Shown one piece after another: positions 1 to 54,487 of a stretch of DNA of 64,000 nt. Made by a program: the position numbers and the translations under genes. The notes under the pieces are model-generated. The model did not search any database. It was not told the origin of the DNA and saw only the letters and a program-made list of their open reading frames with translations. Numbering within the stretch: the stretch's first letter is position 1; every line of letters begins with the position of its first letter. The DNA is taken from assembly GCF_964355755.1 (NCBI RefSeq), contig NC_092677.1, positions 625,001 to 689,000 on the forward strand, given 5' to 3'. The stretch comes from Antedon mediterranea (taxonomy: Eukaryota > Echinodermata > Crinoidea > Comatulida > Antedonidae).

Positions 1-2543
1 TGAAAGTACCGGAAACAGAGGTCGATGGCACTATTTATTTAGTAAATATAACAGTTACAAACATCATTGGATCAACAACGGATTCAGCTAATATCACAAT
101 ATCTGGTAAGATTTTAAATGAAATGATATCCATGAGAAATATTTTAGCTTTATCTACTGGATACAACTGTGAATACCAGTGATTCTGAGATTGATCTAAA
201 TGTTATCTGCTAGCTTCATTTTTGGTATTAGGTGTTAACTTCATCAATTCATTTTTGTAAAATATTAAAGCAAACGATGGATGGACTGGAATTGCATTTA
301 CATGAGCAAGATTTATACAATATTAGTTTAACTATAGATTGTTCATTAAAATACAATTAAGTAGTTGATGTTTCGATTTGTTAACTATAAATAATAATTA
401 TTTTAATTGCATAGCAAGTATTACTAATAATTGAGGTAATTTATACTGTAGGCCTACAAACGACTTAAACATAAAAACAGTCGTTTAGGAGTATGGAAAT
501 GTATACTACTGTATTATGCTATGGATGTATTAGTTCCTTCAACTTAGTTCATTTAAATTTTTCCTAAAACGATTTCAGTAATTATGATTCAAGATTCAAG
601 ATTCAAGAAATTTTATTTGTCCATAAAATGGAAATTCACTTTGCTTGGTAGATTAAAACAACAGTATTGCAACAATTTAAAAACGTGCAGTATTATAACA
701 GATTAAAAATACAAGATAAAAAGTTAAAAATACTGTTAAAAATGTAAAACTATTAAAAATTGCATTAACGTCTTACATTAGAATTAAAAATATGAATGCT
801 ATTTACAACGAAGGATTTTCTAGTTCTACAATGATTTGCTCTTGGAGGTCGTAGCCTAATGCCTGATCTATTTAAGTTATAACAGTAATGTAACGGATGA
901 GTGGGGTCTTTCATAATATTGTTAACTTTTTTTTAGAATACTCTTTTCATAGATAAATGAACAAGGCGTTAGATCAGCTTTAATAATACGTTGTGCAATT
1001 TTACGTGGTCTCTCAATATTTTTCTTATCATTTTCAGTAAAGTTACCATAAAAACATCCAATGCTAAAAGATAAAATACTTTGAATAATACTTTGATAAA
1101 ATAGAATTAAAATAGTGTTATCAACTCTAATTTGCTTGAGTTTTCTGAGAAAGTAGAGCCTTTGAGATGCCTTCTTGGAAATCATGAGAGAGTTTGACTC
1201 CCATTTTAATTTGTTGTCAATTATAGTACCTAAGTATTTGTATTGAGTTACTCTTTCAACCTCGGTTTCTTTAATAGTTATTACATTATGTTCAACTGCG
1301 GTTTTACGAAAATCTGACTGCTTGTATGAGTTCTTTATTTAATTATAAATGTCATTTCATATTAATGTTTGTGTTAAGGTACAGAGTAACAATTTATATT
1401 TTCCATGATCAACTGCAATGCAATTAAAAAAAAAACACCCAGTTTTTAATTAGAATATAAAAATCACCATATTAAGCACCAGTAAGATAACCATTATGAA
1501 ATCATGCCACTGATGCGCTGAGCAGGCCTACTACAAACTTGTTTTATTTAGTTGATGAGCGTTTACGTGTTTTCGGTTAAAAATAGCATTAAGTCAACAG
1601 TTTCAGTCAAAACCACGTCTATACCAATTACAAGTAAGCGTCGTTTAATTAATGAATTTGTGTTTTAGATATATTCAGTACTATACTGGAGTTTCATACA
1701 AACGACATTGGCTCATATTCTACAATACCAGATTTTACTACAATTTAATTTCAATATCAATATACACCCGTTATGTGTACTTATTGAAATAAACAAATCA
1801 TATAAAATACATTGATAGATTAGGACTGTAATATGCTAACAAAAAACATTTTCCTTCAGAAACAACAGCCGAGTCATGTAATGATACTACTGGTCTGACC
1901 ATCGGGATGTTCTTTGTTGGCATCATACTGGGTGTCTTAGGATTTTACATTGCAGAAATTACTCACAACAAGATAAAGAAGGTTGGTAAAATGCAGTATG
2001 AATATTATACTTATATAACCTTTATAATTTTCGAACTATTCATGCTGACAGTGGCAAAAATAATTCAATTGATGGACTACATTCTACTAAAATAAAATGT
2101 CCAACATTATTGCACAAAATATAATTGAAAAACATACAGTAGTGTATACAGAGTAATAATAACTTTATATTAATCTATTAGAAGTCAGTGTCAACGAAAC
2201 AAGACGCAGAGAAAAAGAAACAAGATGTAATATTGATACAATCTATAAAGAGGACAAACCAACGACTGGTAATCCGATTGAAAATATTATAATTGTGCAT
2301 ACTATATTTTAGTTACTTTTAGTACGATTACCATAAGTTATTGGACTGTGAGTTTATTGCTTATTAACTACATTGTATAATAGTTTCTTATGTTAGCAAT
2401 CCTTTGCTTTTTAACAGACATACATGGATTACGTAGGAGACACTGGCGAGCAAAACCAAACCTATCAAGATTTACAACATAAAGAAGAAGAGTCAGCTTA
2501 TGTTAATGTTAAGACTGGGAATAAGCAAAAGGGAAAAGTATGA
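1..2543 (+). CDS. Ig-superfamily receptor, gene A, 3' part (cut by the window edge)
   Basis: This is the last part of a receptor gene like gene B. Exons: 1-105 (end of the cysteine-free third Ig-like domain, donor GTAAG), 1860-1981 (transmembrane), 2182-2226 (15 basic juxtamembrane residues), 2418-2543 (tail, TGA stop). The introns are phase 1, 0 and 0, as in the other copies. The membrane segment is about 18 residues with a GVLGFY core, followed by a basic stop-transfer stretch. The tail carries YQDL and YVNV eight residues apart. Two oddities: the donor after 2226 reads GTAATA where the other copies have GTAAGT, and intron 4 holds a 727 bp LINE fragment (588-1314). The donor after 1981 is a weak GTTGGT, shared with B and C. 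The 5' exons lie outside the window. Exon calls rest on alignment with the other copies. Confidence 0.8.
588..1314 (-). mobile_element. 5'-truncated LINE fragment in intron 4 of gene A
   Basis: Genes B and C lack this segment, which defines its edges. On the minus strand 922-1185 encodes 87 residues typical of the C-terminal part of LINE reverse transcriptases (a LFYQSIIQSILSF block). The element's 3' end lies to the left and finishes in a short GAATCTT-type repeat (about 588-607), as CR1/L2-type LINEs do. The flanks share only TGA (585-587 and 1315-1317), so the target-site duplication is weak. Confidence 0.75.
2418..2543 (+). CDS. Tail exon of gene A with paired tyrosine motifs
   Basis: The 42-codon final exon follows a TTTTTAACAG acceptor. 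Tyrosines occur as YMDY at the start, then YQDL and YVNV separated by eight residues. The first motif fits YxxL; the second, with valine, fits a relaxed activation motif, an inhibitory SxYxxV motif, or a Grb2-type YxNx site. An AATAAA signal follows at 2605-2610. Confidence 0.75.
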   Translation, partial: TYMDYVGDTGEQNQTYQDLQHKEEESAYVNVKTGNKQKGKV

Positions 2544-3909: not shown

Positions 3910-3955
3910 ATGTTATCAAAGCAGGATATTTATTTGCATCTCTTTCTTTTATGCT
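3910..3955 (+). CDS. Signal-peptide exon of gene B
   Basis: ATG at 3910 opens 15 codons with a hydrophobic LHLFLLC end, then one base and a perfect GTAAGT donor. Phase 1 fits the acceptor at 4335. The same exon is at 27888-27933 and 32911-32956 with one residue change (Q to K in gene C). This start was chosen because the next exon has no in-frame ATG upstream that is shared between copies. Confidence 0.7.
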
Positions 3956-6900
3956 GTAAGTAATCGAATATGGTTCTATTTGTGCTTTGTTTTTTTTTTA
4001 TTTTGTAACATTACAAAGTTATTATAATACTGGAATACTTCTTCATTTTCTACATTGTTTTCTGCCTTTGATATTTTATTCGGACCCCAATGGAAACTAA
4101 TTCTTTTTCTTAGGATTAATTGGGTTGTTCTGAATTCATCACCAAATGTTTCTCCTTTGTTTTCTCTCTTATGTTTTTTCATTTGACTGTTTTTATGTAT
4201 GATATTTTTGATGTTTGGATTCTAAATAAAAACAAACAATATCATTCTGTACAGTAGTATAAAACACTTAAAAGTAAAAACAATCCCATTATTGTTTGAT
4301 GATGTTCTATTACTTTTTTGTTTAACAAATTCAGTCTTACGAAAATATGTTGCAGTAACAGTGACTGTTGATGACATAGATGTAGCTGAAGGATCTGAAG
4401 CAAGAATAACATGTAACATTGTACCAGCTAGCAGTGGAGCTGATCCTACTGTAACATGGTATAATGTTACCAATGGGGCAAATGATTTAATAGCCAATTA
4501 TCAGGGTGGATTTGGAACAGTAGAACCAGGTTACACTGACAGATTTAGTGTTGAAAATGACATTACTCTTGTAATTACCAACACTCTCAGAATTGACAGT
4601 GGAACATATCAATGTAGTGCAAATTTAGTTGGAGATAGTCCATCATCTGATAATGATATATGCACTCTGACTGTAAATTGTGAGTAAATCTTTTATTTTT
4701 TATCCATGGGTACGCTTACTTTAAAACTCAGTAGTGTCAGATTTTCAGAAAAAAATCTAATTACGAATAACTTTAATCCCACCTTTTTAATTTTAATTTT
4801 CTTTAGTTTTTTCTCATCTTTTTTCTGTTGATTGCTCAGCGCGTAGAGGCGTCCTGCATGTTGCGCTATAGTAAATTGAACATTATTATTATTATTATAT
4901 AACTTTGATAAGTACCATGGTTGAGGGGTAAAAGTTCATACTCCACTCAAATTCATCTGGATTCTTTCCTGTCTGAAAATTGTATTCAGTGATTTTATAA
5001 AGTGAGACAATTGTGTTAATATAAGATTAAACAATATTGTTTTTAACTCAAATGATCCCATTTTTAAATTGTACTATTTTTTGCCAAATACAGTAATATA
5101 GATTATTCTTAAATTTTATAGATTTGGATAAACCTAGAATTAGGTTTTCGACACTTGTAACTGAAGGAGATGAAGTTGTCATGACCTGTGTTGTGGATTC
5201 TAGTCCAGAAGCTATGTGCAACTTTATAAAAGATGGTGACGTACTACCACATGATGGTTCATGTACGTTTACAATTCCATCAGCCAGTCGTGCTGATGAT
5301 GGAAGTTATGAGTGCGAGGCGGATAATGGTGTTGGTAACAAACAAAAAAGTGACAATAGAAACCTAGAGGTACAATGTAAGTAGTTTGTGATGATTTGAT
5401 GTTAAGGTAAAATGATGATCAGATCTAAGTTTATAATTCTACAATACACTAAAATGGGCCGCCATGTGTGCTAATTAATGTAGGATTGCAAATGCCAATA
5501 AATAGATATCTACAATGTAGGCCTACACGTTTATAAGAATGGTGACATGACATAATTGTCACGTGGTGATTAAAATACATCAACAATCCATTAATCGCAG
5601 TAGCGAGTGGGACGCGGAAAAATGTTTATTTACCAAGACCAAATCTTATATAGGCGACATGGGTTACCTTACGGTTTAAACAAGGTTTAAACAAATTATT
5701 AATGTTATAGGTTTAAAACTGAACAATTAAACACACGACTTTTGGTTTTCAGATAAACCTGATGAGGATATTGCAAATGATCAGACTGTTCCTCCTGGTG
5801 AGACTTTTACAATAACATCTACTGTAACAGCTAATTCTTCTGACGTCACTTATTTGTGGACTACTGATCTTCCTGGAAATGAAGATTCTGTCAACTATCG
5901 ACCAACATTTACACTGAAAGTATCGGAAACAGAGGTTGATGGCACTATTTATTTAGTAAATATAACAGTTACAAACATCATTGGGTCAACAACGGATTCA
6001 GCTAATATCACAATATCTGGTAAGATTTTAAATGAAATGATATCCATGAGAAATATTTTAGCTTTATCTACTGGATACAACTGTGAATACCAGTGATTCT
6101 GAGATTGATCTAAATGTTATCTGCTAGCTTCATTTTTGGTATTAGGTGTTAACTTCATCAATTCATTTTTGTAAAATAATAAAGCAAACGATGGATGGAC
6201 TGGAATTGCATTTAACATGAGCAAGATTTATACAATAGTAGTTTAACTATAGATTGTTCATTAAAAAACAATTAAGTAGTTGATGTATCGATTTGTTAAC
6301 TATAAGTAATAATTATTTTAATTGCATAGCAAGTATTACTAATAATTGAGGTAATTTATACTGTACAAACGACTTAAACATAAAAACAGTCGTTTAGGAG
6401 TATGGAAATGTATACTACTGTATTATGCTATGGATGTATTAGTTCCTTCAACTTAGTTCATTTAAATTTTTCCTAAAACTATTTCAGTAATTATGACTGT
6501 TGTTATGAGTTCTTTATTTAATTATAAATGTCATTTCATATTAATGTTTGTGTTAAGGTACAGAGTAACAATTTATATTTTCCATGATCAACTGCAATGC
6601 AATTAAAAAAAAAACACCCAGTTTTTAATTAGAATATAAAAATCACCATATTAAGCACCAGTAAGATAACCATTATGAAATCATGCCACTGATGCGCTGA
6701 GCAGGCCTACTACAAACTTGTTTCATTTAGTTGATGAGCGTTTGCGTGTTTTCGGTTAAAAATAGCATTAAGTCAACAGTTTCAGTCAAAACCACGTCTA
6801 TACCAATTACAAGTAAGCGTCGTTTAATTAATGAATTTGTGTTTTAGATATTCAGTACTGGAGTTTCATACAAACGACATTGGCTCATATTCTACAATAC

Positions 6901-7717
6901 CAGATTTTACTACAATTTAATTTCAATATCAATATACACCCGTTATGTGCACTTATTAAAATAAACAAATCATATAAAATACATTGATAGATTAGGACTG
7001 TAATATGCTAACAAAAAACATTTTCCTTCAGAGACAACAGCCGAGTCATGTAATGATACTACTGGTCTGACCATCGGGATGTTCTTTGTTGGCATCATAC
7101 TTGGTGTCTTAGGATTTTACATTGCAGAAATTACTCACAACAAGATAAAGAAGGTTGGTAAAATGCAGTATGAATATTATACTTATATAACCTTTATAAT
7201 TTTCGAACTATTCATGCTGACAGTGGCAAAAATAATTCAATTGATGGACTACATTCTACTAAAATAAAATGTCCAACCTTATTGCACAAAATATAATTGA
7301 AAAACATACAGTAGTGTATACAGAGTAATAATAACTTTATATTAATCTAATAGAAGTCGCTATCAAAGGAACAAGACGCAGAGAAAAGGAAACAAGATGT
7401 AAGTATCGATACAATCTATAAAGAGGACAAACCAACGACTGGTAATCCGATTGAAAATATTATGATTGTGCATACTATAGTTACTTTTAGTACGATTGCC
7501 ACAAGTTATTGGATTGTGAGTTTATTGCTTATTTACTACATTGTATAATAGTTTCTAATATTACCGGTAGCAATCCTTTGCTTTTTAACAGACTTACATG
7601 GATTATGTAGTAGACACTGGCGAGCAAACCCAAACCTATCAAGATTTACAACATAAAGAAGAAGAGTCAGCTTATGTTAATCTTAACGCTGTGAATAAGC
7701 AAAAGGGAAAAGTATGA
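3910..7717 (+). CDS. Ig-superfamily receptor with ITAM-like tail, gene B (complete, 7 exons)
   Basis: Exons: 3910-3955, 4335-4679, 5122-5376, 5753-6019, 7032-7153, 7354-7398, 7592-7717; total 1206 nt, 401 residues. Introns 1-4 are phase 1 and the last two phase 0. Domains: signal peptide (MLSKQDIYLHLFLLC, then FLRKYVA); V-like Ig with Cys, Trp, DSGTYQC and one extra Cys; C2/I-like Ig with DDGSYEC, in which Phe replaces the core Trp and two extra Cys occur; a third Ig-like domain with a core Trp but no Cys; a transmembrane helix; 15 basic residues; a tail with YQDL and YVNL eight residues apart, an exact ITAM match. Such motifs, once phosphorylated, bind tandem-SH2 kinases in vertebrates. Likely a type I plasma-membrane recognition receptor; the ligand is unknown. 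AATAAA at 7779-7784. Sure of the exons, fairly sure of the start, inferential on signalling. Confidence 0.85.
7592..7717 (+). CDS. Tail exon of gene B: exact ITAM consensus
   Basis: The exon encodes 41 residues. Tyr-16 opens YQDL, then QHKEEESA (eight residues), then YVNL at Tyr-28. This matches YxxL/I, 6-8 residues, YxxL/I. YVNL also matches a Grb2-SH2 YxNx site and an SxYxxL inhibitory-type motif. Two further tyrosines sit at residues 2 and 5. Confidence 0.8.
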   Translation, partial: TYMDYVVDTGEQTQTYQDLQHKEEESAYVNLNAVNKQKGKV

Positions 7718-14018: not shown

Positions 14019-15980
14019 TTAAGTTCTGTAATTCGATAAAATGTCTCTTTTTACATATTTTTTTAGTATTTTATAATTTTTGTTAACAATATCTAAGTGA
14101 TTTCTACAGAGCTCGTTCCATAGTTTTGGTCCGTGAATACTGATAAAATGTTGACCAGACGTTAACCTAGAGTATGGTTGTTTTACGCTACAAATATTTC
14201 GAAGATTATGGGTAGTATTTTCGTTTCTTTTGAATATCATTTGGATTCGTCTGGGTAAAACATTGCTTTTAATCTGGGCCATGAAACCTAGGACGGTAAC
14301 TCTGTTGATATCTTGTATGTTAAGTATATTTAATTGCTTAAACAGTGGCTCAGAATGTTGCCATGGCTTTTTAAATAAAATTATTCTAGCAGCCTTTTTC
14401 TGGAGTTTAAGAAGGGATTCTAGTGTACTATCATATGTACTGCCCCAAATAATGTTTCCATACTGAAGGTGCGGTAGAATTAATGTATTATACAAATTTG
14501 TTAAAATATAATTAGGAAAAAAATGTCTAGTTTTTATCAATATTCCAATAGACCTAGCGGTTTTTTTGCTAATAAGCCTTATATGATTTTTCCAGCAAAG
14601 GTTCTCATTTATTACAACCCCAAGAAATGTTAAATTTTTTTGTTGTTCTAAAGTAATGTTATTCATTTTCAATTCAATGTTGGTTGTAATAATACGCCTT
14701 TGGGCAGTTTTAAAGATTACGTAATTTGTTTTGCTGGTGTTTAATAAAAGTTTATTAGCTTTGAACCACATATTAATTCTATCTAGTTCCACATTCATAG
14801 TGTTTGCCAATGCGTTCAGGTTTTTTCCACACTTGAATCCTGTTGTATCATCGGCAAAGCTAATTAATTCAATTTGTGTACTTGAGTTACATATATCGTT
14901 TACATATACAAGAAACAACAAAGGTCCCAAAACGGACCCTTGTGGAACACCAATACTAGTCTCCGTAATATTAGACGAAGTACCATTTATAAAAACATAT
15001 TGCTTTCGTGATTTTAAGTAGTTACTGAACCATTTTAGTGTAACACCTCTTATACCATAGTGGAATAGCTTGTTCAGTAATATACTGTGGTCAATAATAT
15101 CAAATGTCTTTGACAGATCCATAAATGTGGCAATTACGAACTCTTTGTTTTCAAATGCCTTTAGTATTTTGTGGATCAGATCAATTATAGCGTGGGAGGT
15201 TGAATGATTGTTTCGGAAGCCGTATTGCCAATCATTTAGTATATTGTAAGTTTTAAAGTAATTATACAATCTGGAATGGACTATCTTTTCAAAGATTTTA
15301 GAGAAAATTGGTAGTAGTGATATCGGGCGATAATTCGAGGCTAAATGACGGTCCCCTTTTTTGTATATGGGAATTACTTTTGCAATTTTTATCTGTTCCG
15401 GTATTGAGCCGGAGTGAAGAGATACGTTAAATATATAAGTCAAGGGCTTTACAATAGCATCACCAACTGCCTTGACTAACTTTGGTGAAATATCATCAAA
15501 ACCAGGTGTTTTGTTTGCATCAAGTGATTGAATCACTTTTAACACTTCCTCCTCATTTACATGGTAGAAAAACATAGAGTTACTTTGCCTGTTTAGCAGG
15601 TAATCAGAGTATTGTGCCGTTGATGGCTCAATACTGTCTCGTACCTTGAGACCAACATTAATAAAATAATCGTTAATGTGGTTTGCAATAGGCTCACAAC
15701 CCTCTATGAGTTTGTCACCAGATGTAAAAGTGGATGGAACATTATTTTTGCCTCCACCTGGATTTATAATATCATTTATAATATTCCATGTTTTTTTTTT
15801 ATTTCCTTTAGTATTGTTAAAAACATTTTCATAATATGATTTCTTTGCCTTTTTGCATGTACGCATAAATGACTTATTAAACTCTTTATAAATATCCTTA
15901 TTTTTAGACGAGGGATGTTTTATAAATTTGTTGTACAACACATGTTTTCTTTTGCTAGACTTTAAGAGTCTTGAGCTCAT
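14019..15980 (-). CDS. Family Y reverse transcriptase, intact frame (repeat unit 1)
   Basis: 653 codons open from MSSRLLKSSK to the end. Blocks: TPGFDDISPKLVKAV, NYRPISLLPIFSKIFEKI, YGFRNNHSTSHAI, ATFMDLSKTFDIIDH, GVPQGSVLGPLLFLVY, FADDTTGF (catalytic), then a C-terminal GPKLWNEL block. It is the longest undamaged transposon frame in the window. Its start is not a real protein start: in an intact element it follows the endonuclease, which lies in another frame at 15977-16459 because of a base change in a T-run near 16021-16036. Confidence 0.85.
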   Translation of the reverse strand: MSSRLLKSSKRKHVLYNKFIKHPSSKNKDIYKEFNKSFMRTCKKAKKSYYENVFNNTKGNKKKTWNIINDIINPGGGKNNVPSTFTSGDKLIEGCEPIANHINDYFINVGLKVRDSIEPSTAQYSDYLLNRQSNSMFFYHVNEEEVLKVIQSLDANKTPGFDDISPKLVKAVGDAIVKPLTYIFNVSLHSGSIPEQIKIAKVIPIYKKGDRHLASNYRPISLLPIFSKIFEKIVHSRLYNYFKTYNILNDWQYGFRNNHSTSHAIIDLIHKILKAFENKEFVIATFMDLSKTFDIIDHSILLNKLFHYGIRGVTLKWFSNYLKSRKQYVFINGTSSNITETSIGVPQGSVLGPLLFLVYVNDICNSSTQIELISFADDTTGFKCGKNLNALANTMNVELDRINMWFKANKLLLNTSKTNYVIFKTAQRRIITTNIELKMNNITLEQQKNLTFLGVVINENLCWKNHIRLISKKTARSIGILIKTRHFFPNYILTNLYNTLILPHLQYGNIIWGSTYDSTLESLLKLQKKAARIILFKKPWQHSEPLFKQLNILNIQDINRVTVLGFMAQIKSNVLPRRIQMIFKRNENTTHNLRNICSVKQPYSRLTSGQHFISIHGPKLWNELCRNHLDIVNKNYKILKKYVKRDILSNYRT

Positions 15981-16459
15981 CCATGGTTGTTTGAACTTTT
16001 TATACTTTTTGTGATTTTCTTGAACTTTTTTTTTTTCAAGTTTTTATTATATAATTTTTTGAAAGTGTTGATAAAAGCATTGTAAGCATCATCAGCGTTT
16101 GTCCTTACATATACATCAGCCCAATCAACAGGTAATAAGTCATTATATAGTTTATTTATATTTCTTTCGTTTATTGCATATTTATGAGGTTCTATATTAC
16201 CGGTTTTTACTTTAATATGTTTGTCGGGCACGGAGTGGATAATTTGGTATACCGGTAAATGATCAGATATGTCTGAGATTAGTATACCAGATAACATTTG
16301 TTCAGAAAGTGTATTGGAGAAAATGTTATCAATTAATGAAGATGTGTTGTTTTGTATTCTAGTGGGTCTTGAAATCGATGGGTAGTAGGAATGCGACATC
16401 ATTACTTCTAGAAAATTATTTACAAAATCAGTCGATGCATGCTTAAGTAAATTAATGTT
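15977..16459 (-). pseudogene. Family Y endonuclease C-terminal fragment (repeat unit 1)
   Basis: About 160 residues: SRPTRIQNNTSSLIDNIFSN, then ISDHLPVYQIIH (the Ser-Asp-His catalytic end of APE endonucleases), then a lysine-rich linker. The N-terminal half is missing because the element is 5'-truncated. The frame is out of register with the reverse transcriptase. Confidence 0.75.
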
Positions 16460-27887: not shown

Positions 27888-30800
27888 ATGTTATCAAAGA
27901 AGGATATTTATTTGCATCTTTTTCTTTTATGCTGTAAGTAATCTAATATGGTTCTATTTGTGCTTTGTTTTTTTTTTTATTTTGTAAAATTACAAAGTTA
28001 TTATAATACTGGAATACTTCTTCATTTTCTACATTGTTTTCTGCCTTTGATATTTTATTCGGACCCCAATGGAAACTAATTCTTTTTCTTAGGATTAATT
28101 GGGTTGTCCTGAATTCATCATCAAATGTTTCTCCTTTGTTTTCTCTCTTATGTTTTTTCATTTGACTGTTTTTATGTATGATATTTTTGATGTTTGGATT
28201 AAAAAAAAAACAAACAATATCATTCTGTACAGTAGTATAAAACACTTAAAAGTAAAAACAATCCCATTATTGTTTGATCATGTTCTATTACTTTTTTGTT
28301 TAACAAATTCAGTCTTACGAAAATATGTTGCTGTAACAGTGACTGTTGATGACATAGATGTAGCTGAAGGATCTGAAGCAAGAATAACATGTAACATTGT
28401 ACCAGCTAGCAGTGGAGCTGTTCCTGTTGTAACATGGTATAATGTTACCAATGGGGCAAATGATTTAATAGCAGCTTATCAAGGTGGATTTGGAACAATA
28501 GAACCAGGTTACATTGACAGATTTAGTGTTGAAAATGACATTACTCTTGTAATTACCAACACTCTCAGAATTGACAGTGGAACATATCAATGTAGTGTCA
28601 ATTTAGTTGGAGATAGTCCATCAGTTGATGATGATATATGCACACTGACTGTAAATTGTGAGTACAGTAACTCCTTAATTAGGTGTGGTACATAACTTGA
28701 GTCTTATAATTCTCATAAATTGAAATGCTGTTTGTCAATAGGATAGGACGGTCAAAGGTTTAAAGAGGAATCCTAGTTTAAAATTTCTCTTATCGTTCCA
28801 GTCCTTAACAGTGTATTAAGTGAAGACAAAAAAGGATAGGCCTATGTTGATAGAAGATTAAACAATATTGCTTTTACTCAATAACTTACTGTTTTCTTTA
28901 AATTTTACCAAATATAGCCTAATAATATGAATTATCCTTAAATTTTATAGATTTAGATAAACCCGAAATGAACTTTTTGACACTTGTAACTGAAGGAGAT
29001 GAAGTTGTCATGACCTGTGTTGTGGATTCGAGTCCAGAAGCTATGTGCAACTTTATAAAAGATGGTGACGTACTACCACATGATGGTTCATGTACGTTTA
29101 CAATTCCATCAGCCAGTCGTGCTGATGATGGAAGTTATGAGTGCGAGGCGGATAATGGTGTTGGTAACAAACAAAAAAGTGACAATAGAAACCTAGAGGT
29201 ACAATGTAAGTAGTTTGTGATGATTTGATGTTAAGGTAAAATGATGATCAGATCTAAGTTTATAATTCTAAAATACACTAAAATGGGCCGCCATGTGTGC
29301 TAATTAATGTAGGATTGCAAATGCCAATAAATAGATATCTACAATGTAGGCCTACACGTTTAAAAGAATGGTGACATGACATAATTGTCACGTGGTGATT
29401 AAAATACATCAACAATCCGTTAATCGCAGTAGCGAGTGGGACGCGGAAAAATGTTTATTTACCAAGACCAAATCTTATATAGGCGACATGGGTTACGTTA
29501 CGGTTTAAACAAGGTTTAAACAAATTATTAATGTTATAGGTTTAAAACTGAACAATTAAACACACGACTTTTGGTTTTCAGATAAACCTGATAAGGATAT
29601 TGCAAATGATCAGACTGTTCCTCCTGGTGAGACTTTTACAATAACATCTACTGTAACAGCTAATCCTTCTGACGTCACTTATTTGTGGACTACTGATCTT
29701 CCTGGGAATGAAGATTCTGTCAACTATCGACCAACATTTACACTGAAAGTATCGGAAACAGAGGTTGATGGCACTATTTATTTAGTAAATATAACAGTTA
29801 CAAACATCATTGGATCAACAACGGATTCAGCTAATATCACAATATCTGGTAAGATTTTAAATGAAATGATATCCATGAGAAATATTTTAGCTTTATCTAC
29901 TGGATACAACTGTGAATACCAGTGATTCTGAGATTGATCTAAATGTTATCTGCTAGCTTCATTTTTGGTATTAGGTGTTAACTTCATCAATTCATTTTTG
30001 TAAAATATTAAAGCAAACGATGGATGGACTGGAATTGCATTTAACATGAGCAAGATTTATACAATAGTAGTTTAACTATAGATTGTTCATTAAAATACAA
30101 TTAAGTAGTTGATGTATCGATTTGTTAACTATAAGTAATAATTATTTTAATTGCATAGCAAGTATTACTAATAATTGAGGTAATTTATACTGTACAAACG
30201 ACTTAAACATAAAAACAGTCGTTTAGGAGTATGGAAATGTATACTACTGTATTATGCTATGGATGTATTAGTTCCTTCAACTTAGTTCATTTAAATTTTT
30301 CCTAAAACTATTTCAGTAATTATGACTGTTGTTATGAGTTCTTTATTTAATTATAAATGTCATTTCATATTAATGTTTGTGTTAAGGTACAGAGTAACAA
30401 TTTATATTTTCCATGATCAACTGCAATGCAATTAAAAAAAAACACCCAGTTTTTAATTAGAATATAAAAATCACCATATTAAGCACAAGTAAGATAACCA
30501 TTATGAGATCATGCCACTGATGCGCTGAGCTAGCAGGCCTATTACAAACTTGTTTCATTTAGTTGATGAGCGTTTGCGTGTTTTCGGTTAAAAAGAGCAT
30601 TAAGTCAACAGTTTCAGTCAAAACCACGTCTATACCAATTACAAGTAAGCGTCGTTTAAATAATGAATTTGTGTTTTAGATATTCAGTACTGGAGTTTCA
30701 TACAAACGACATTGGCTCATATTCTAAAATATCAGATTTTACTACAATTTAATTTCAATATCAATATACACCCGTTATGTTTACATATTGAAATAAACAA

Positions 30801-31547
30801 ATCATATAAAATACATTGATAGATTAGGACTGTAATATGCTAACAAAAAACATTTTCCTTCAGAGACAACAGCCGAGTCATGTAATGATACTACGGGTCT
30901 GACCATCGGGATGTTCTTTGTTGGCATCATACTTGGTGTCTTAGGATTTTACATTGCAGAAATTACTCACAACAAGATAAAGAAGGTTGGTAAAATGCAG
31001 TATGAATATTATACTTATATAACCATTATAATTTTCGAACTATTCATGCTGACAGTGGCAAAAATAATTCAATTGATGGACTACATTCTACTAAAATAAA
31101 TTTCCAACATTATTGCACAAAATATAATTGAAAAACATACAGTAGTGTATACAGAGTAATAATAACTTTATATTAATCTAATAGAAGGCACTGTCAAAGG
31201 AACAAGACGCAGACAAAAGGAAACAAGATGTAAGTATCGATACAATCTATAAAGAGGACAAACCAACGACTGGTAATCCGATTGAAAATATTATGATTGT
31301 GCATACTATATTTTAGTTACTTTTAGTACGATTACCACAAGTTATTGTATTGTGACTTTATTGCTTATTTACTACATTGTATAATAGTTTCTTATGTTAG
31401 CAATCCTTTGCTTTTTAACAGACTTACATGGATTATGGAGGAGACACTGGCGAGCAAAACCAAACCTATCAAGATTTACAACATAAAGTAGAAGAGTCAG
31501 CTTATGTTAATGTTAAGGCTGGGAATAAGCAAAAGGGAAAAGTATGA
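27888..31547 (+). CDS. Ig-superfamily receptor with tyrosine-motif tail, gene C (complete, 7 exons)
   Basis: Exons: 27888-27933, 28313-28657, 28951-29205, 29582-29848, 30864-30985, 31185-31229, 31422-31547; total 1206 nt, 401 residues, the same exon lengths as gene B. The layout matches B: signal exon, V-like Ig (Cys, Trp, DSGTYQC), C2/I-like Ig without the core Trp, Cys-free Ig-like domain, membrane helix, basic exon, tail. The tail has YQDL, eight residues, YVNV. Introns, membrane exon and third domain are nearly identical to B; the V-like domain and the first residues of the second domain differ, mostly by amino-acid changes. Weak donor GTTGGT after 30985. AATAAA at 31609-31614. No disabling change seen. 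Confidence 0.85.
31422..31547 (+). CDS. Tail exon of gene C
   Basis: The encoded tail has YMDY, YQDL and YVNV; the last two are eight residues apart. It differs from gene B at a few residues, including YVNV for YVNL and a Val for Glu in the intermotif stretch. Stop TGA at 31545-31547. Confidence 0.75.
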   Translation, partial: TYMDYGGDTGEQNQTYQDLQHKVEESAYVNVKAGNKQKGKV

Positions 31548-32910: not shown

Positions 32911-35900
32911 ATGTTATCAAAGCAGGATATTTATTTGCATCTCTTTCTTTTATGCTGTAAGTAATCGAATATGGTTCTATTTGTGCTTTGTTTTTTTGTT
33001 ATTTTGTAACATTACAAAGTTATTATAATACTGGAATACTTCTTCATTTTCTACGTTGTTTTCTTCCTTTGTTATTTTATTCGGACCCCAATGGAAACTA
33101 ATTCTTTTTCTTAGGATTAATTTGGTTGTCCTGAATTCATCATCAAATGTTTCTCCTTTGTTTTCTCTTTGATGTTTTTTCATTTGACTGTTTTTATGTA
33201 TGATATTTTTGATGTTTGGATTCTAAATAAAAACAAACAATATCATTCTGTACAGTAGTATAAAACACTTAAAAGTAAAAACAATCCCATTATTGTTTGA
33301 TCATGTTCTATTACATTTTTGTTTAACACAATTCAGTCTTACGAAAATATGTTGCTGTAACAGTGACTGTTGATGACGTAGATGTAGCTGAAGGATCTGA
33401 AGCAAGAATAACATGTAACATTGTACCAGCTAGCAGTGGAGCTGTTCCTGTTGTAACATGGTATAATGTTACCAATGCGGCAAATGATTTAATAGCCAAT
33501 TATCAGGGTGGATTTGGATTAGTAGAACCTGGATACAGTGAGAGATTTAGTGTTGAAAATGACATTACTCTTGTAATTACCAACACTCACAGAAGTGACA
33601 GTGGAACATATCAATGTAGTGCAAATTTAGTTGGAGATAGTCCATCAGTTGATGATGATATATGCACTCTGACTGTAAATTGTGAGTACAGTAACTCCTT
33701 AATTAGGTGTGGTACATAACTTGAGTCTCATAATTCTCATAAATTGAAATGCTGTTTGTCAATAGGATAGGACGGTCAAAGGTTTAAAGAGGAATCCTAG
33801 TTTAAAATGTCTCTTATCGTTCCAGTCCTTAACAGTGTATTAAGTGAAGACAAAAAAGGATATGTTGATAGAAGATTAAACAATATTGTTTTTACTCATT
33901 AACTTACTGTATTCTTTAAATTTTACCAAATATTGCCTAATAATATAAAATATTCTTAAAATTTATAGATTTAGATAAACCCGAAATTAAGTTTTTGACA
34001 CTTGTAACTGAAGGAGATGAAGTTGTCATAACCTGTGTTGTGGATTCTAGCCCAGAAGCTATGTGCAACTTTATAAATGATGGTGACGTACTACCACATG
34101 ATGGTTCATGTACGTTTACAATTCCATCAGTGAGTCGTACTGATGGAGGCAGTTATGAGTGCGAGGCAGATAATGGTGTTGGTAACAAACAGAAAAGTGA
34201 CAATAGAAACCTAGAAGTACAATGTAAGTAAACTTTTGGTTTATTTCAAGTAGATCACAGATATCTGATCTTTCAAAAAACGATTATATTACTTTAAAAA
34301 CATTATACCAGGTCATTCCGTGTCTTAAATGTACGTTTTATGGTAAATGAGAGAAACAATGCATTACTGTACCTAAAGTAGTTCACTGTGAAAGTCCTCT
34401 CGTGGACGGTCTTAGGCTTAGTTTTATAGGTCTAGCTGGTAAACAGCATTAACATTGTACGCTAGCTATGCCTAGCCTGACGTCTACAGTAGTTGCTGCA
34501 TTAATTGTCTTTCTGTTTTTGCCAGAATCCATTATTACAAATTAAGGAAAACCTGATATTTTCGCTAAAAAGTTACGATTTTTTCTTTTGTTTTGGCAAA
34601 AAAAAAAAAAAATTAAAAAAATATCAATCAGCGCGCAGTGCATGTTGGGATTTATAGCGGACCAACATATTTTTTACCATTTAAAGAGAAAAAAAGTTAT
34701 CGCAATAGGAACATGTAGTATTTATTTTTACATTAAATGTAGTTGGTGACCTTAAATTAGATCTAAAAATGTAAGGAATGGGACTTTAACATGAATTATT
34801 CCATGGTAACTCGCTTTTTATGGGTAGTTAAATTAGTGTATGTGTTGTTACCTTGAGGATAAATAAAATGTTGAAAAGTGTATGAACTATAGTCAAGAAA
34901 AACAAGGCCAACAGCCATTAAGTCGCGTGCTACAATGCATAGTGATACCGGACAGACAGACCGACAGACAGACCGACAGACAGACAGACAGACCGACCGA
35001 CCGACCGACATAGTGAACTATACTGACCAAAATTACTGAGCATGTTTAAAAATGTTGAAATGTTTAAAAACATTTATATTTTTTTAATTTACACGTGCGT
35101 AGCCTGTCACTTTCGACGTGCTCGTATAACGTAATTTCGAGTTGAAAAGTAAGTCAAGAAAACAGAAATCGGGCAAAAAGAATGCGCAATAACATTTAAC
35201 GCGCAGTGCGCGCGCAAAAATATGCGCACTCATGGCAATTTTGTAAACGCTTAAAATTGCCTGAAATGTACTCTTATTTCATCGAAAATAAATTTTGAAA
35301 ATTTTAAGCGCGCGTACGCATGCGTTACATGCGCTACGCACGTAATTGTATTGCCATATGATGATTTATGCCCTGAAATTTATTAGTACCAAATTTTATT
35401 TAATTGTGATTCATGGTTGTTAAGATATGATTACAAACGTGATTTCGTTAAATCGTGCGTAGACCGCGTAATTTTTTATTGCGCACCGTGAAAACATAAC
35501 CACATCGATTCCTGACCATAAGGAATATTCTGTGAAAAATTGACTTAGTTAGATTAAACTGATATCAAGATAAGGTCAGAAAGCGATAAAACGCATAGTG
35601 ATACCGGACCGACAGACAGACCGACAGACAGACAGACAGACAGACCGACCAACCGACCGACATAGTGAACTATAGAGTCGCTTCCACGCGACTAAAAACC
35701 AAAAATAATCATTTGTGTAGGACATGACCAAAAAAAAAAACGAAATTGAAATTCTCCTCATACCAGTAAGCTATTGTTGAAAAGTTATTAACCTACAAAA
35801 TGGTATGTAACGTCAAGAATACTTTGAAATAATGTTATAAATGTCCATTATTAAATTTTAAATGGTATAAATTTTGGTAACTTACATGTCCAGGATATAT

Positions 35901-36784
35901 GAATGTCTATAGAAACAATTTGTTCACAAGATTAATTACTGTAAACTTTCTTAAATATCAACTAAAAATGCAGTATTGTACTTTAGAAAACTAAAGTCTT
36001 TCACTTGTAGCCCAACAAATAAATTTATGAAAACTTTAGGCCTATGCTTAAGTAACTCGCCTTACATAAATTAGTGCTGTTGAAATCACGTTGCTATTTT
36101 TTTCATATTTTCAGAAAAAGAAATTACAATAATTATTTTTGTTCATAGAAGTATAACTTATATGTTATGCAGGAAAGGTATAGAATTTATAATTACTGAG
36201 AATGAGATTTTCAGGTCATGTCCATTTCTCATGGAAATGCCCATTAGAATAACTGTGTCTAAAGTTGTAGGTATTTGAGCTGTACTGAAAAAAAAACATA
36301 TTTACAAGATAAGATAATGTCATGAAGAATCAACTGAAGTCTTGTAATATTTCTGAAAACAATTATGTTCGTTTCATTGGTTGAAATCCATATTTACATA
36401 CCGACCACCCCATTAAGCTAGTTAATATGGTATGATAAGCTATGTCATTGTTCTGATATTTGTGGTACATTTTTTATAAATAATAAATTGTATTTCACTG
36501 TTTTTCAGTTAAACCTGTTGCTAATGATGATAATGATATAAATGATCAGATTGTTTTCCCTGGTGAAACTGTTACAATGACATTCAGTGGAATAGCGAAT
36601 CCCCCAGACATCACTTATCTGTGGACTACTGATGTTCCTGGAAACGAAGATGCTGTCAACAATGGATCATCATTTACAGTAAAAGTGTCGGAATCAGAAG
36701 TTGATGGTGCTTTTTATTTTGTTAATTTGACAGTTACAAACAGCATTGGATCAACAACTTATTCAGCCAAAATCACAATATCTG
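32911..36784 (+). CDS. Copy D: signal and three Ig-like exons (5' half)
   Basis: Intact signal exon, V-like exon with Cys, Trp and SDSGTYQC, C2/I-like exon ending GSYEC, and a Cys-free exon 276 nt long (267 in B and C). The third exon has diverged most from its counterparts. Intron 3 has grown to 2.3 kb because of an element at 34901-35695. Downstream, intron sequence matching genes A-C is found at 42658-42944 and 49337-49590, then stops just before the point where the membrane exon should be. Confidence 0.85.
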
Positions 36785-48700: not shown

Positions 48701-51700
48701 GATAAAATAGCAAATTTAATTCATGCTTAATATAATAACAAGTTTTTAATTTATTTATACTGTTATTCATGTCCTAAAATGTCCACTCCGACACAAATGA
48801 ACAATCCTTGTTAAACGACAGTTTTTATCATGGTAAAGCTTAAAAAGTACAAATTTTAACACAGTAAGCTGTAGAAGTGGCAATTAGTTGGTTTTATTGT
48901 ATTTGTAGCTATATAATAAAACACATTTTTTATTTGAGTGTAAATGTTTGCTAATTGTTCAACATTTATTGTTAAAATTCTCAGAAAAATTCAATTTTTC
49001 CAATCATATGATGTTTATATAAAGCGCAAGTATATTTTTTATATTGATACTCTGTACTAGTAATTAAATATTAGCCAAATAAGCAGTGGATTTTGTGTTA
49101 TAATAAAAAATATTGAGATGTTGATTTCCAAATTTTTCAATAAAATTCTTCCAGTTACTAAATTCCTACTATTACTGTGAAAATGTCCGGATAGTTGTAG
49201 CTTTATAATATTATTTTTTATTAAATATAAACCTGTATGTTTCAAAATTAATTGAAAAATATGTAAAAAAAGGACTTTGAATTTTTGACCCTGTGAGACA
49301 CTTGCGGCCTAGGTTACTGTGAAATTGCCCATATTATGAGCGTTTTCGGTGTCTTTCAGCTAAAAATAGCATTATGTCAACAGTTTCAGTCAAACCCACG
49401 TATATACCAATTACAAGTAATCGTCGTTTAATTAATCAATTTTTGTTTTAGTTATATTCAGTACTATGAGTTTTATACAAACTACATTGGCTCATATTCT
49501 ACAATACCAGATGTCACTACAAATATTTAAATTAATTTCACTATCAATATACACCCGTTATGTGTACTTATTGAAATAAACAAATTATATAAAACTAGAT
49601 GGTAGCTCGCGTACCATCTAGGTCGTGCCCACAGATGGTTCTCGAATACACAGTAATTTCAGCGTAACAAAACTGGCGATTTCAAATGTACGTTCCGCAG
49701 GACTATAATACTATAATTGTCGTTTACAGAAACGAATAAATAGACACGATGATTTATGTAGTCAACTAGAATTAGCACCCTGGGAATTACTTCCGAAGGA
49801 GAAACTTATCACAAAATGAGTCCAAATTTTTGATTTGGACTCATTTAAAGAAACCCAATTTGTGTTTTGTATGTAACATTAGGGTTGAGGGATGGGAAAG
49901 CGGATAGGTACAAAGAGGAACAATTTTTAAATATATTCTTTATCCACTCAGTAACGAAATATTTTTTTTCATGTTTTATACGCCTATAAATAATATACCT
50001 CTAAATACAGTAAAACATTTGCGATTTAATACTTTGTTAAAACTGTCACTGTTATAATCGATTGATCGATCGATCGAAATATTGAAGTACATGTCACGAT
50101 ACACCACTACGACGTTTATATTGTTGGTAATTATTAATTAATACAAACGTTGAGAAGGAACTGTCAGTATAAAGTTTATGTGTATATAATAATGTGTTTA
50201 TATATCTAACAGTAGAGCCACAATCTCAGTAACGTTTATTTGTATATATTTTTATATTACATCCAACAGTACGAACATTCACAGTAAGAAATCTTTTATC
50301 CATGGATACTGTTTACTAAAAAGATTTTAGATGAGTTTCAGATTTTAAAGATACAACTAAGAATTAACTAAATAATACCATGGAGAAATAAGTTAGGATT
50401 TCTCCATGATAACACATAACTCAATATCAATGTAATGCAAATTTAGTTGGAGATAGTCCATCAATTGATGATGATATATGCACCCTGACTGTAAATTGTA
50501 AGTACAAAATAATACAGAATAATTAAGAATATTGGATGTATAGGACTCGCACATTATTACTTAACAAAACCATGTGCTTGTGTGAGAATAGAGTACATTG
50601 TTTTATTGTATACTTTCCATGTTAATAAAAAGTGTTAATCGGAAATCTGAAGCATGACACATGATTTTTCAATAATATTTTTACAAAATAAATTGCAATT
50701 AATAACATTTAAAGTTTACCATCAATTAACCATTATTTGTACAGTAAGCTTGGCATATGGTACAGTTAAAATGTCATAATCCGTGAACCAAACCAACGGA
50801 AACATTGACATTTTCATACAATATTTCTTGATAACTTTTCTTATTCATTATAATTCTTTGTCTGTTTTTTTCACAGTACAGCTAGTAAATGCTATTGAAT
50901 GATTTTTGTTAAAATATTAAAGAAATTAAAACAGACAGGAAAAAAGTAAATGTACAGTTTTTGCAGCAAATAAAGATATTTTTATTTAAATGCTGCTACT
51001 GTACTGTAAAGTGTATCAAACAAAGTCATAAGAGATAAATTCCATCATTTCAGATTTTATTCTTTAAAAAGTGAATGTTCTTTTAATGTTGTAGAGTTTT
51101 AATTTAATTATTAGTTGCACATGGTTAATTTGATATTGTTTCCTGAAGTTATACATATTTTGGTAAACATTGTAAATTTGTAAAATAAGAAATAATAAAT
51201 ATTTTGTCTATCTCTTACAGATTTTTCAAGTGGTAATGTGATTACTATCAATGTTAATTCTAATACCACTGCTTATAATGTTATTATCACATGCTTTCCT
51301 GGTACAGTAGATGGCAATCCAGTTCCTGATATAAACCTCTATAAAGATACCACCATTATTAACACACAGAAAACATTACCTCTAACATACACAATAGCTA
51401 CTGTGTCAGATGATGACAGTGGAGACTACAGATGTGAAGCAAGTAACAGTGTTGGAAGTGTAACAAGCAATACAATAACACTCGATTACTGTAAGTACTG
51501 TAACAAATTTTGAAATCAATGTTAAATTTCTTTTCTCATTATTTTTAATGAGTTCTAGTATTGACAATATTAGGCAACATTGGTATATTAGATATTTGCC
51601 TTTACAGTATGTACTGTTGTTAAATGTGCATGGTTATGCCTATAAACAGAAAACAATATTTGTATCGGTAGAATCTAGTGTTAGTAACTAATGATAATTA

Positions 51701-54487
51701 GACTACCATTCAAGTTTATCGCTTTTATGTGCAAGAATGGCCTATGATAATGCTTGTTTATAGAATCACTATAATTAAACTAACAATTAAATGTAATTAT
51801 GCTTGTCTTCAATATGCAATATCAATTTTCCCCAGATTTAACTGATACTGTCACCATTAGTTCCACCTCAAATGATACCACTATAGTACTAACATGCTCT
51901 GGTTCAGTTGATGGTAACCCATCTCCTGACATAGTCCTTAACAAAGATTGTAATATCATTCTGCAACAATCTACATTACCTATAATATACACAATAGACA
52001 GACCAACAGAGAATGATGGAGGTTATTACACGTGTGAAGCTGATAACACTGCTTTCTCTACAAGAAGCAACGTAGAAAAACTACGCAAGTATTACAAAAT
52101 GTGTATGGTTTGGTAAAATAAAAATAGTAATGTTGAATATCAGATTTCTACTGATTTGTAAGAAGTATTGATAATGCTGATCAATTTATAGTTTAAATGT
52201 TTTTCATGCAAATTTGAATAAATAACTTGTCATCATGTACAAATTGTTTAAAATGAAATGTTTGTATATAAAAAGCTGAATGGTGAAATGAAATGCTATG
52301 CTTAAAAGTCTTATCTATTACTGACTTTTAAAGTAAATGTTTAAAGTAAATTATATTTTTAGATAAACCAAGATACGAGACAACAGAACCAGATACTCTG
52401 AAACCTGGGAAAATCGGTATGATTGCAGTTGAAAATGTTGAAGTGAACCCTGAACGTGTAACTTATATTTGGAGCATTGATGGTGTTGTGGATCCAAATG
52501 CAAATTCTGCATCATTCACATTCACTGGATCAATGGTAGTTGGTACAGTTCATACCATATCAGTGAATGTTACAAATCTCATTGGGTCAACTTCAAAGAC
52601 AATACGGATCGCAGTCTCAGGTTGTTATTCAGTATTCTGTTGTTATATTGGAAGATCCATAATACAAATAAACTCCTGACCATTATACATACAAAAGAAA
52701 GCAATTTCAAAATGAATAGCAGTAGGCCTATTACAGTGCAGTATTAGTAAAAGATTGCTTGTTAATGTTTTTCATTTAGCTACTATAAGATTGAATCAAC
52801 AACAAATTCAGCCAAAATCAAAATACCAACAACAACAATTGTTTAGGCTTATCTATTTTATTATTTAATTGTGCATGTGTTTTTATTCATCATAGAAACA
52901 AGCTTTGGGGTTAAAATATATGCGGCTTATTTCACTTTCGCTTATATCATGTTCTATTCGATAAGTAAACCTATAATAACCTATTCGTATTTATCAATGA
53001 TCTATTTCTACATACTTTAGTTGAAGTTGAATAAAGACTAATAAGCTTAATTCAGTATAGATAATAATCTCTGTTGATACAGTAATAATTATTGGTAACC
53101 TTTACATGTAAATAAAACGTACTTTACTTTTCAGAGCGATCTAATAGCAACACAGGGCTGATCATTGGAATGCTCTTCGTTGGCATCTTCATTGGTGCCG
53201 TAGGATTGTATATTGGACAAATTATTCACAATAAGATAAGGAAGGTATGTTAGGTTGATGATGACTTTAATATTATTCATTTATAATTACAAAACATGCA
53301 GACTTGATACAATCGAAGACTCTGAGCCACTATGCCATACAAAGTACTATAAATTATAATGGTACTTCATGTATTCTAGCAAAGATGCTTTGAATTCGAC
53401 TACAAGCTTTACAACACGTCACAATGTCGGTTATTTGTTTCTATTTAGAAAAAATTACATTCGAGTAGAAGAGATAATTAGGTTATGAACACTTACATCA
53501 TTATCCTTTAAAATGTATTGAAATAAATGGAATTGAAAGACACATTAATGACATGCAAGTAATGACATAATGTTGTTATTTTTTATTTAGAAGTCACTGT
53601 CAGAAAAACAAAACACAGACAAAAGAAAACAAGATGTAAGTATTGATCTATAAATACGATAAAAATGACCAATAAAACGATTAATATAATCAATTAAATA
53701 CAAAATCTTTATTATCCCAAACTGGGAGATTCATTTGGTCGTGGGGGACAAACATCAACAGCCTGTTAAAATACACAAACAGGAAATGAAAGATTGCACA
53801 ACATAATTATGATATAATAATAGCACCGTTATAATAAGAATATAATTGAGAATAATTACCATTCTAAAAATTTAATTCAGCAGAAATGATAAAAGGTAAA
53901 CTAACAAACTAAAGTCAAATAATTTGATTCTAGACTTCTTCCAGTTAGTGTAGTTTGTTGTGCGACAGCACAATTTAAAATTCAAATCATTTAATTAAGT
54001 ATTAATATTAATTAGATCCTTATTTTGAGTTTAGTTTCGTTTTCTTTGTTTACTCACATAGTTTCTAAAAGGCTCTTATAATTGGTCATATGTTTTTCCC
54101 TACTCTGATGTAATTTGTAATTTATACCCACGACCTCCAGATCAAAGCCTGGCGTTCATACCTCTAGACCACCGAGCTTGCGCTGATGGCTAGTGGTTAG
54201 ATTCGAGCCCAAAAGTAAGCAGCGGGTACTGCACCAACAGGGTTGTAATTGTATTTAACTACTGCGGAGTAGCTTTGCCCTGGCGCAAAGCTACTCCACA
54301 GTAATTAAATACAATTACAGGCCCTTATAAGTTTGCAATTACTGTATTTACTTGACAGACATACATGGATTATGTAGGAGAAAGTAGAGGGCAAAACCAA
54401 ACCTATCAAGATTTACAACATAGAGTAGAAGAGTCAGCTTATGTTAATGTTAAGGCTGGGAATAAGAACAAGAAGGGAAAAATGTGA
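32911..54487 (+). CDS. Fused D/E Ig-superfamily receptor with six Ig-like domains (10 exons, proposed)
   Basis: Exons: 32911-32956, 33337-33681, 33969-34223, 36509-36784 (copy D); 51221-51490, 51836-52084, 52363-52620, 53135-53244, 53591-53635, 54359-54487 (copy E). Total 1983 nt, 660 residues. Every Ig exon is a multiple of three and phase 1, so the halves join in frame. Domains: signal; V-like; C2/I-like; Cys-free; two C2-like (GDYRCEA and GYYTCEA, both without core Trp); Cys-free (core Trp, IWSIDG); membrane helix; basic exon; tail with YQDL and YVNV. D has no membrane or tail exon nearby and E has no signal exon, which supports one transcript. Intron 4 is 14.4 kb of transposons. The donor after 52084 is GC. 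Alternatively D and E are two broken genes. Confidence 0.6.
34901..35695. mobile_element. Non-autonomous DNA element with GACA/GACC minisatellites, copy 1
   Basis: About 0.8 kb, repeated at 58253-59040 and 61037-61835. It starts AACAAGGCCAACAGCCATTA then AGTCGCGTG and ends with an AGTCGC/GCGACT hairpin containing CACGCGACT, the inverse of the start motif. A CCGACAGACAGA-type array flanks both sides of a conserved core (GCGCAGTGCGCGCGC). The core is shared with 38800-39330. No coding capacity. Asymmetric end motifs point to a Helitron2-like origin; that is inference. Confidence 0.7.
36785..37947 (+). other. First part of D/E intron 4, no gene seen
   Basis: AT-rich intron sequence. Traces of the gene A-C intron are visible, such as GCATTAGTTCCTTCAAC near 37730-37747. 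I see no exon, RNA gene or clear element in it. Confidence 0.5.
38270..38375 (-). repeat. tRNA-like SINE fragment
   Basis: On the minus strand GGCTCGGTGGTCTGTG resembles a tRNA A box and GAGATCGAGTCTCACC a B box, about 45 bases apart. A full cloverleaf was not evident. A tRNA-derived SINE head or decayed tRNA gene is likely. Confidence 0.45.
39361..40935 (-). mobile_element. Inner Helitron-like element 1
   Basis: Minus-strand 3' end: hairpin with arms AACTCGTCA/TGACGAGTT (39371-39391), a short spacer, CTAG, then host T. The AGTTATCCGC beside this hairpin reappears at the other end as a 10 bp stem with loop TGAAT (40909-40933). Non-coding body rich in ACGCGCGT-type words. Confidence 0.6.
40936..42555 (-). 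mobile_element. Inner Helitron-like element 2
   Basis: It lies directly beside element 1. Minus-strand 3' end: hairpin AAACTCGTC/GACGAGTTT (40945-40969), then AAGTT, CTAG, T. GGTTATCCGC recurs as a TTATCCGC/GCGGATAA hairpin at 42533-42553. Contains an internal diverged repeat (about 41900-42130 versus 42180-42450). No long frame. Confidence 0.6.
41105..41180 (-). repeat. tRNA-like SINE fragment inside inner element 2
   Basis: The minus strand contains GGGTTCGAATCCCATC, a good Pol III B box, with a possible A box (GCTCGATGTGTAGTGCC) upstream. Decayed cloverleaf. Likely SINE head or tRNA pseudogene. Confidence 0.5.
44683..45656. mobile_element. Foldback element with about 110 bp inverted repeats
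   Basis: The left arm starts CGCGA plus ten T and CGTACATAAG; the right arm at 45535-45654 is its inverse, and both run through a GGGGACCCCCTCATGAAACG block. CGGCC is present on both sides (44678-44682 and 45657-45661), a possible 5 bp target duplication. The 600 bp between the arms holds palindromes (about 45078-45099 and 45366-45395) but no gene. Confidence 0.7.
48167..48296 (+). repeat. 26 bp minisatellite, five units
   Basis: Five identical head-to-tail units beginning GATGTTTTGGACATGG. It lies in one of the larger repeats at the right end of the TIR element. Confidence 0.95.
49595..50411 (-). mobile_element. Hairpin-ended element at the D/E junction
   Basis: The left end has a 10 bp hairpin, CTAGATGGTA/TACCATCTAG (49595-49621), with CTAG at the very edge and a T beyond it on the minus strand. 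The right end has an ACCATGGAGAAAT / ATTTCTCCATG hairpin (50375-50411). A second copy is at 54656-56145. Non-coding. Its left neighbour is gene D intron sequence and its right neighbour is a broken gene E exon. Confidence 0.6.
50424..50497 (+). pseudogene. Copy E: 3' remnant of the V-like Ig exon
   Basis: It matches the last 74 bases of the V-like exons (TATCAATGT, then GTTGGAGATAGTCC) and keeps the GTAAGT donor. The acceptor and the first 270 bases are missing, and stops lie just upstream in frame (50407-50412), so it is unlikely to be spliced in. It marks the deletion or insertion breakpoint that removed the 5' half of copy E. Confidence 0.8.
51221..54487 (+). CDS. Copy E: three Ig-like exons, membrane exon and tail (3' half)
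   Basis: Exons: 51221-51490, 51836-52084, 52363-52620, 53135-53244, 53591-53635, 54359-54487. The first two encode similar C2-like domains with shared VDGNP.PDI and YTI segments and CEA after the second Cys; the core Trp is replaced. The third is Cys-free, ending VTNLIGSTS. The membrane segment keeps MLFVGIFIGAVGLYIG. The tail keeps YQDL, eight residues, YVNV. Sequence divergence from A-C is greater than between A, B and C. There is no signal exon of its own. Confidence 0.85.
52784..52830 (+). pseudogene. Relic of a Cys-free Ig exon in copy E intron
   Basis: The stretch matches the end of the third-domain exon of genes A-D (GAATCAACAACAAATTCAGC, then AAAATCA). It has no donor and is short. 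Probably the end of an older duplicated exon. Confidence 0.5.
53700..53800 (-). repeat. LINE-like 3' end in copy E intron
   Basis: On the minus strand CCCAGTTTGGGATAATAAAG resembles the 3' tail of CR1/L2-type LINEs. No coding part is recognisable. Confidence 0.4.
54123..54181 (-). repeat. tRNA-like fragment
   Basis: On the minus strand the order GCTCGGTGGTCTAGAGGTAT, a CTTTGATC anticodon-like stretch and GGAGGTCGTGGGTA recalls tRNA-Pro, but the T arm is degraded. SINE head or tRNA pseudogene. Confidence 0.35.
54244..54319. repeat. 76 bp near-perfect palindrome next to the E tail exon
   Basis: Arms TGTAATTGTATTTAA and TTAAATACAATTACA enclose a second pair, GGAGTAGCTTTG and CAAAGCTACTCC. It ends 39 bases before the tail exon, in its intron, where it could fold in the pre-mRNA. 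Probably a small foldback element. Confidence 0.75.
54359..54487 (+). CDS. Tail exon of copy E
   Basis: 43 codons, one more than in A-C. The tyrosine pair (YQDL, eight residues, YVNV) is kept although other positions changed, such as GESRGQ for GDTGEQ. This suggests constraint on the motif. No good AATAAA was seen in the next 150 bases. Confidence 0.75.
   Translation, partial: TYMDYVGESRGQNQTYQDLQHRVEESAYVNVKAGNKNKKGKM

Follow-up and report, generated by a model that had tools for sequence, protein, structure and literature searches.

The window analysed here, a 64-kb stretch of DNA (C8:625001-689000 of a genome of 354 Mb in 18 contigs), contains part of a large tandem family of immunoglobulin superfamily (IgSF) receptors, hereafter array I, whose last exon encodes a constrained pair of tyrosine motifs; a second, related Ig array (array II) is present on C8. 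The array I proteins are best read as single-chain activating receptors that would combine an ITAM-type YQDL site with a Grb2 site, a reading held with a confidence slightly above even and favoured because strict ITAMs are rare in the family, because the second motif has an asparagine at Y+2 without exception and because SH2 readers are encoded in the genome. In this family, arranged over ~1 Mb, each protein would be a type I receptor with a variable V-set/I-set head, one transmembrane (TM) helix and a constant short tail, and the tail carries tyrosines in YMxY, YQDL and Y[VIL]N[V/I/L], with 8-10 residues between the two latter motifs.

Gene B of the window illustrates this architecture. Indeed, its seven plus-strand exons join in one continuous reading frame into a 401-residue product and encode (i) a signal peptide, MLSKQDIYLHLFLLC (3910..3955, in-frame model), (ii) a V-set Ig domain on a phase 1-1 exon (4335..4679; Pfam V-set 58.7 bits, cut-off 26), (iii) an I-set/C2 Ig domain (5122..5376; Pfam Ig_3 83.3 bits, I-set 59.2 bits), (iv) a Cys-less Ig or PKD-like domain (5753..6019; PKD 17.9 bits, which is under the cut-off), (v) a TM helix, whose exon has 14 matches in the genome (7032..7153), (vi) a charged linker of 45 nt and 15 residues (7354..7398, in-frame model) and (vii) the tail TYMDYVVDTGEQTQTYQDLQHKEEESAYVNLNAVNKQKGKV, with 41 codons followed by TGA (7592..7717, the acceptor AG ending at 7591). 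With V-set and I-set scores above the curated cut-offs, a signal peptide and a TM helix, gene B tests as an IgSF receptor; a Pfam search detected no sushi domain in it. An AlphaFold model of the V exon, obtained with three close sequences, had a mean pLDDT of 45. Within the tail, an ITAM-spaced pair YQDL-x8-YVNL (7637..7684) is encoded, the second motif of which also has the Grb2-type form YxN. An earlier note on this DNA had given the exon coordinates (7592-7717), the motif sequences and the spacer of 8 exactly, and its grouping of the last three exons agrees with the TM, 45-nt linker and tail exons connecting in frame. It had also singled out gene B as an exact ITAM, and in the window only gene B does fit the strict Yxx[L/I]-x8-Yxx[L/I], genes A, C and E having YVNV as second motif. 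Shuffling the gene B tail produced a strict ITAM match in 0.18% and a relaxed match in 3.5% of the shuffles; rare in shuffles and recurring in 62 tails genome-wide, the ITAM-spaced module is beyond chance.

Tails of the same kind are present in the other genes named in the earlier note, A (2418-2543), C (31422-31547) and E (54359-54487), all on the plus strand. Gene A is represented by its 3' end (1860..2543, delimited by splice sites and frames), with a TM exon (1860-1981), a linker exon (2182-2226) and a tail exon encoding YMDY, YQDL and YVNV, while its Ig exons lie mostly upstream of the window start. Gene C (27888..31547) is a complete paralogue with seven exons (27888-27933, 28313-28657, 28951-29205, 29582-29848, 30864-30985, 31185-31229 and 31422-31547) and a YVNV-bearing tail. 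Genes A, B and C share ~96% identity across exons and introns, so the agreement of their tails is weak proof of conservation and reflects mostly recent copying; within the window, only the gene E tail is informative in this respect. Gene E (51221..54487) comprises two I-set exons (51221-51490 and 51836-~52084, the latter with a GC donor), a Cys-less Ig exon (52363-52620), a TM exon (53135-53244), a linker exon (53591-53635) and a tail exon with YMDY, YQDL and YVNV. Gene D (32911..36784, plus strand) has signal, V, I and Cys-less Ig exons only, and a search for exon matches found no TM or tail exon of the array I family before 53135. Since only a V-set exon remnant (50420..50502, plus strand) lies upstream of gene E, this gene is either 5'-truncated or else joined to gene D.

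At the scale of the genome, the tail exon has 65 matches: apart from a single one on C7, all (64) lie on the plus strand of C8, within 621-1574 kb. The set of tails read comprises 62 sequences, namely 13 of class 1 (window-like, 621-1088 kb) and 49 of class 2 (1117-1574 kb). Three of the 62 (C8:1189994, 1315565 and 1573514) carry the same in-frame stop between both motifs and are a duplicated pseudogene lineage. The C7 match, which also contains a stop, belongs to a small outlying cluster of Ig, TM and tail exons (C7:15.696-15.710 Mb) with a LINE beside the TM exon. Furthermore, class-2-like I-set exons that lack a YQDL tail occur by array I on the minus strand (C8:1058, 1078, 1106 and 1348 kb); they are possibly partners with other tails, or remnants, and no inhibitory partner tail was recognised beside those at 1078 and 1106 kb.

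The array I tail follows the pattern YM[TDE]Y ... TYQDLQ ... AYVNV or AVYVNV, with a spacer between YQDL and YVN that is always 9 residues long in class 2 (49 tails), whereas class 1 has 8 residues in 11 tails and 10 in two. Four residues are invariant in all 62 sequences: the second tyrosine of YMxY, the tyrosine of YQDL, the tyrosine of YVNV and the asparagine at Y+2 of this last motif. The YMxY pair, conserved upstream in the tail exon, was absent from the earlier note, as was the invariance of the asparagine. A plain ITAM, in which a doubly phosphorylated YQDL/YVN[VL] would engage the tandem SH2 domains of Syk and the asparagine would be incidental, is compatible with the spacing of 8-10 residues, with the YxxL form of the first half, with the relaxed Y..[LIV] pair present in 59/62 tails, with the exact match of gene B, with the presence of Syk in the genome and with the canonical ITAMs of the related array II. 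However, isoleucine or leucine stands at Y+3 of both sites in only 3/62 tails, gene B included, so that the family as a whole fails the strict test (Yxx[L/I] x6-12 Yxx[L/I]); moreover, Y+3 of the second motif, mostly YVNV, drifts between V, I, L, F and E, whereas the invariant residue is an asparagine that ITAMs do not require. This explanation is therefore considered unlikely. The earlier claim of a tandem invertebrate IgSF family with an ITAM-spaced tail pair thus stands for the array and for a constrained pair, but not for the strict consensus. The Grb2-type Y-x-N is satisfied by 62/62 tails, which extends to the whole family the earlier remark that the second motif fits a Grb2 pattern and is in line with the preferred reading of an ITAM-type site coupled to a Grb2 site.

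Several comparisons indicate that the tail, and above all its core motif, is under purifying selection. Changes counted on the tree amounted to 21 synonymous and 10 nonsynonymous in the core-motif codons versus 66 and 196 elsewhere in the tail (Fisher P 4e-6). Among class 2 genes, mean amino acid identity was 49% for the V domain, 67% for the I-set domain, 83% for the TM exon and 89% for the tail, pooled dN/dS was 0.73, 0.65, 0.70 and 0.28, respectively, and tail identity exceeded V-domain identity in 65/66 gene pairs (12 genes). The 3' exons of these genes show a reduced dS as well, so part of the low tail divergence is probably due to gene conversion or exon exchange; selection was read from the dN/dS ratio. 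For YVNV itself, recent homogenisation is not fully separable from selection, since its Tyr and Asn codons show no synonymous changes either. These data also bear on whether array I could be a family without immune function that serves in adhesion or guidance, its tail merely docking adaptors and its array resulting from tandem duplication with no role in recognition. CEACAM, Robo and contactin are among the closest Ig sequences of solved structure, although this is a general IgSF signal, and non-core changes in the tail have a nearly neutral ratio, as such a family would allow; but array I has over 60 copies, pseudogenes, fragments and V domains that diverge fast while the tail is conserved, all typical features of recognition receptors, and the core motif is clearly constrained, which makes an adhesion or guidance role rather improbable.

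Genes for SH2 proteins that could read these sites are encoded in the genome. In brief, these include a Syk, whose N-SH2 domain scores 124 bits to SYK versus 53 bits for the next family; an SHP2 (286 bits); and four Grb2-type SH2 loci, of which one lies at C1:18.58 Mb and the others form a tandem group at C1:643-660 kb. Three of the four Grb2-type loci retain the KYFLWV segment, which contains the Asn-selecting Trp, and the FLWV segment is lost from the other (L120). One locus (L113) looked SHP2-like at first and was reassigned to the Grb2 type on the basis of its following exon. In Shc (Y317) and Bcr (Y177), YVNV forms the classical Grb2 SH2 site, and an asparagine at +2 is the residue demanded by Grb2. 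The array I motif is identical to the Shc pY317/Bcr pY177 tetrapeptide but differs in its setting, as it is paired with a YxxL site in an Ig receptor tail. Under the activating reading, ligand-induced clustering would lead a Src-family kinase to phosphorylate the tail tyrosines; pYVNV would then dock a Grb2-type adaptor, with a Ras/ERK output, and pYQDL, as an ITAM-type half site, could recruit Syk or SHP2. An inhibitory, ITIM-like family recruiting SHP2 was also weighed, as the earlier note had left such a role open. The SHP2 gene and the SxYxxV form of site 2 in most class 1 tails would suit it, but the residue at -2 of site 2 is Ser in these tails only and Ala in class 2, and site 1, with Gln, His, Lys or Asn at -2, has no ITIM-type residue there. 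The consensus [S/I/V/L/T]xYxx[I/V/L] consequently fails in about four fifths of array I tails, an ITIM identity was set aside for most of them on account of these off-consensus residues, and an inhibitory family appears very improbable.

With an I-set exon of class 2 as query, related Ig exons (~35-40% identity) were retrieved on both strands at C8:4.70-5.78 Mb; they constitute array II. One gene of this array, read through, ends in YQALQFSSNSEDYKWL. Eighteen tails of this type were found, including one copy on C3 (26.18 Mb), and 14 of them contain a canonical ITAM (Yxx[L/I] x6-12 Yxx[L/I]) with spacers of 7-9 residues, for example YQALQLSSNTGEYKDL, YQALQFASSGSGVYQEL and YQTLKFPSNVGDYKEI; the remaining four are broken by loss of a tyrosine or by a deletion. 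Although located outside the window, array II is the strongest backing for the ITAM idea of the earlier note. Comparison of the array I and array II tails with hhalign placed YQ[DA]LQ in register (P 0.003, probability 11%), and descent of the array I tail from an array II-type ITAM is plausible, though statistically weak. Array I could accordingly represent innate activating receptors in which the second half of an ITAM-like module became specialised as a Grb2 site, while its array II relatives would have kept the full ITAM. More tentatively, and with a confidence somewhat below even, the two megabase-scale arrays of single-chain Ig immunoreceptors with diversified heads on one chromosome, one coupled to Syk through canonical ITAMs and the other switched to Grb2 through a YQDL/YVNV tail derived from an ITAM, together with multiplied Grb2-type adaptors, may form an invertebrate counterpart of the vertebrate leukocyte receptor complex.

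In vertebrates, FcgammaRIIA is a single-chain ITAM receptor and DAP12 has YQ[DE]LQ. Array I tails resemble those of FcgammaRIIA and DAP12/CD79 in having a YxxL pair of comparable spacing and, like DAP12, YQ[DE]LQ, but their second site is YxN[V] and there is no evidence of shared descent. Invertebrate Ig receptors whose own tails bear tyrosine motifs are already known, namely Hydractinia Alr, Botryllus FcoR and oyster CgIgIT2 (PMC12065747, PMC11999971), so the kind of receptor is not new. The Alr allorecognition complex of Hydractinia, with 41 members and ITAM/ITIM motifs reported on candidate genes, is likewise a cluster of invertebrate IgSF receptors with V-set and I-set heads; compared by description only, it differs in belonging to another phylum, whereas array I has a near-uniform YQDL/YVNV tail. 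The fester co-receptors (FcoR, 53 loci) of Botryllus, encoded in a polymorphic locus, are Ig receptors whose core motifs are of the hemITAM, ITIM or Yxx[ILV] type (PMC12065747); again by description only, they share tyrosine motifs with array I but possess a sushi domain, which was not found in gene B, and mixed motif types. Oyster CgIgIT2 is an IgSF receptor with a TM region and its own classic ITAM that signals through ERK (PMC11999971), and resembles array I in its own-tail tyrosine motif but has five Ig domains and was described singly rather than as a member of an array. As to the lineage, two tektins encoded in the genome matched chains of PDB entry 8snb, a sea urchin sperm axoneme structure, much better than any vertebrate tektin (411 versus 289 bits and 477 versus 285 bits), these being the groups compared; the genome is thus most probably that of an echinoderm, or at least of an ambulacrarian. 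A COX1 search of the genome gave no match. The open-access papers searched described no array of Ig receptors with ITAM-type tails from an echinoderm; relative to them, novelty lies in the lineage, in the scale, in the near-uniform YQDL/YVN tail and in the occurrence of a canonical-ITAM array on that chromosome as well. The arrays look like an unreported invertebrate innate-recognition complex. If so, single-chain ITAM plus Grb2 immunoreceptor signalling with large, fast-evolving heads would exist outside tunicates, cnidarians and molluscs, and the age of ITAM wiring in variable Ig receptors would become directly testable from one genome.

Two repeat features were also observed in the window. 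A 2,827-bp LINE unit is present in three head-to-tail copies of 99.9% identity (14019-22200), which reflects either tandem duplication of very recent date or an artefact of the assembly. Furthermore, TAGGCCTA occurs 16 times in the 64 kb, far above the expectation from base composition.
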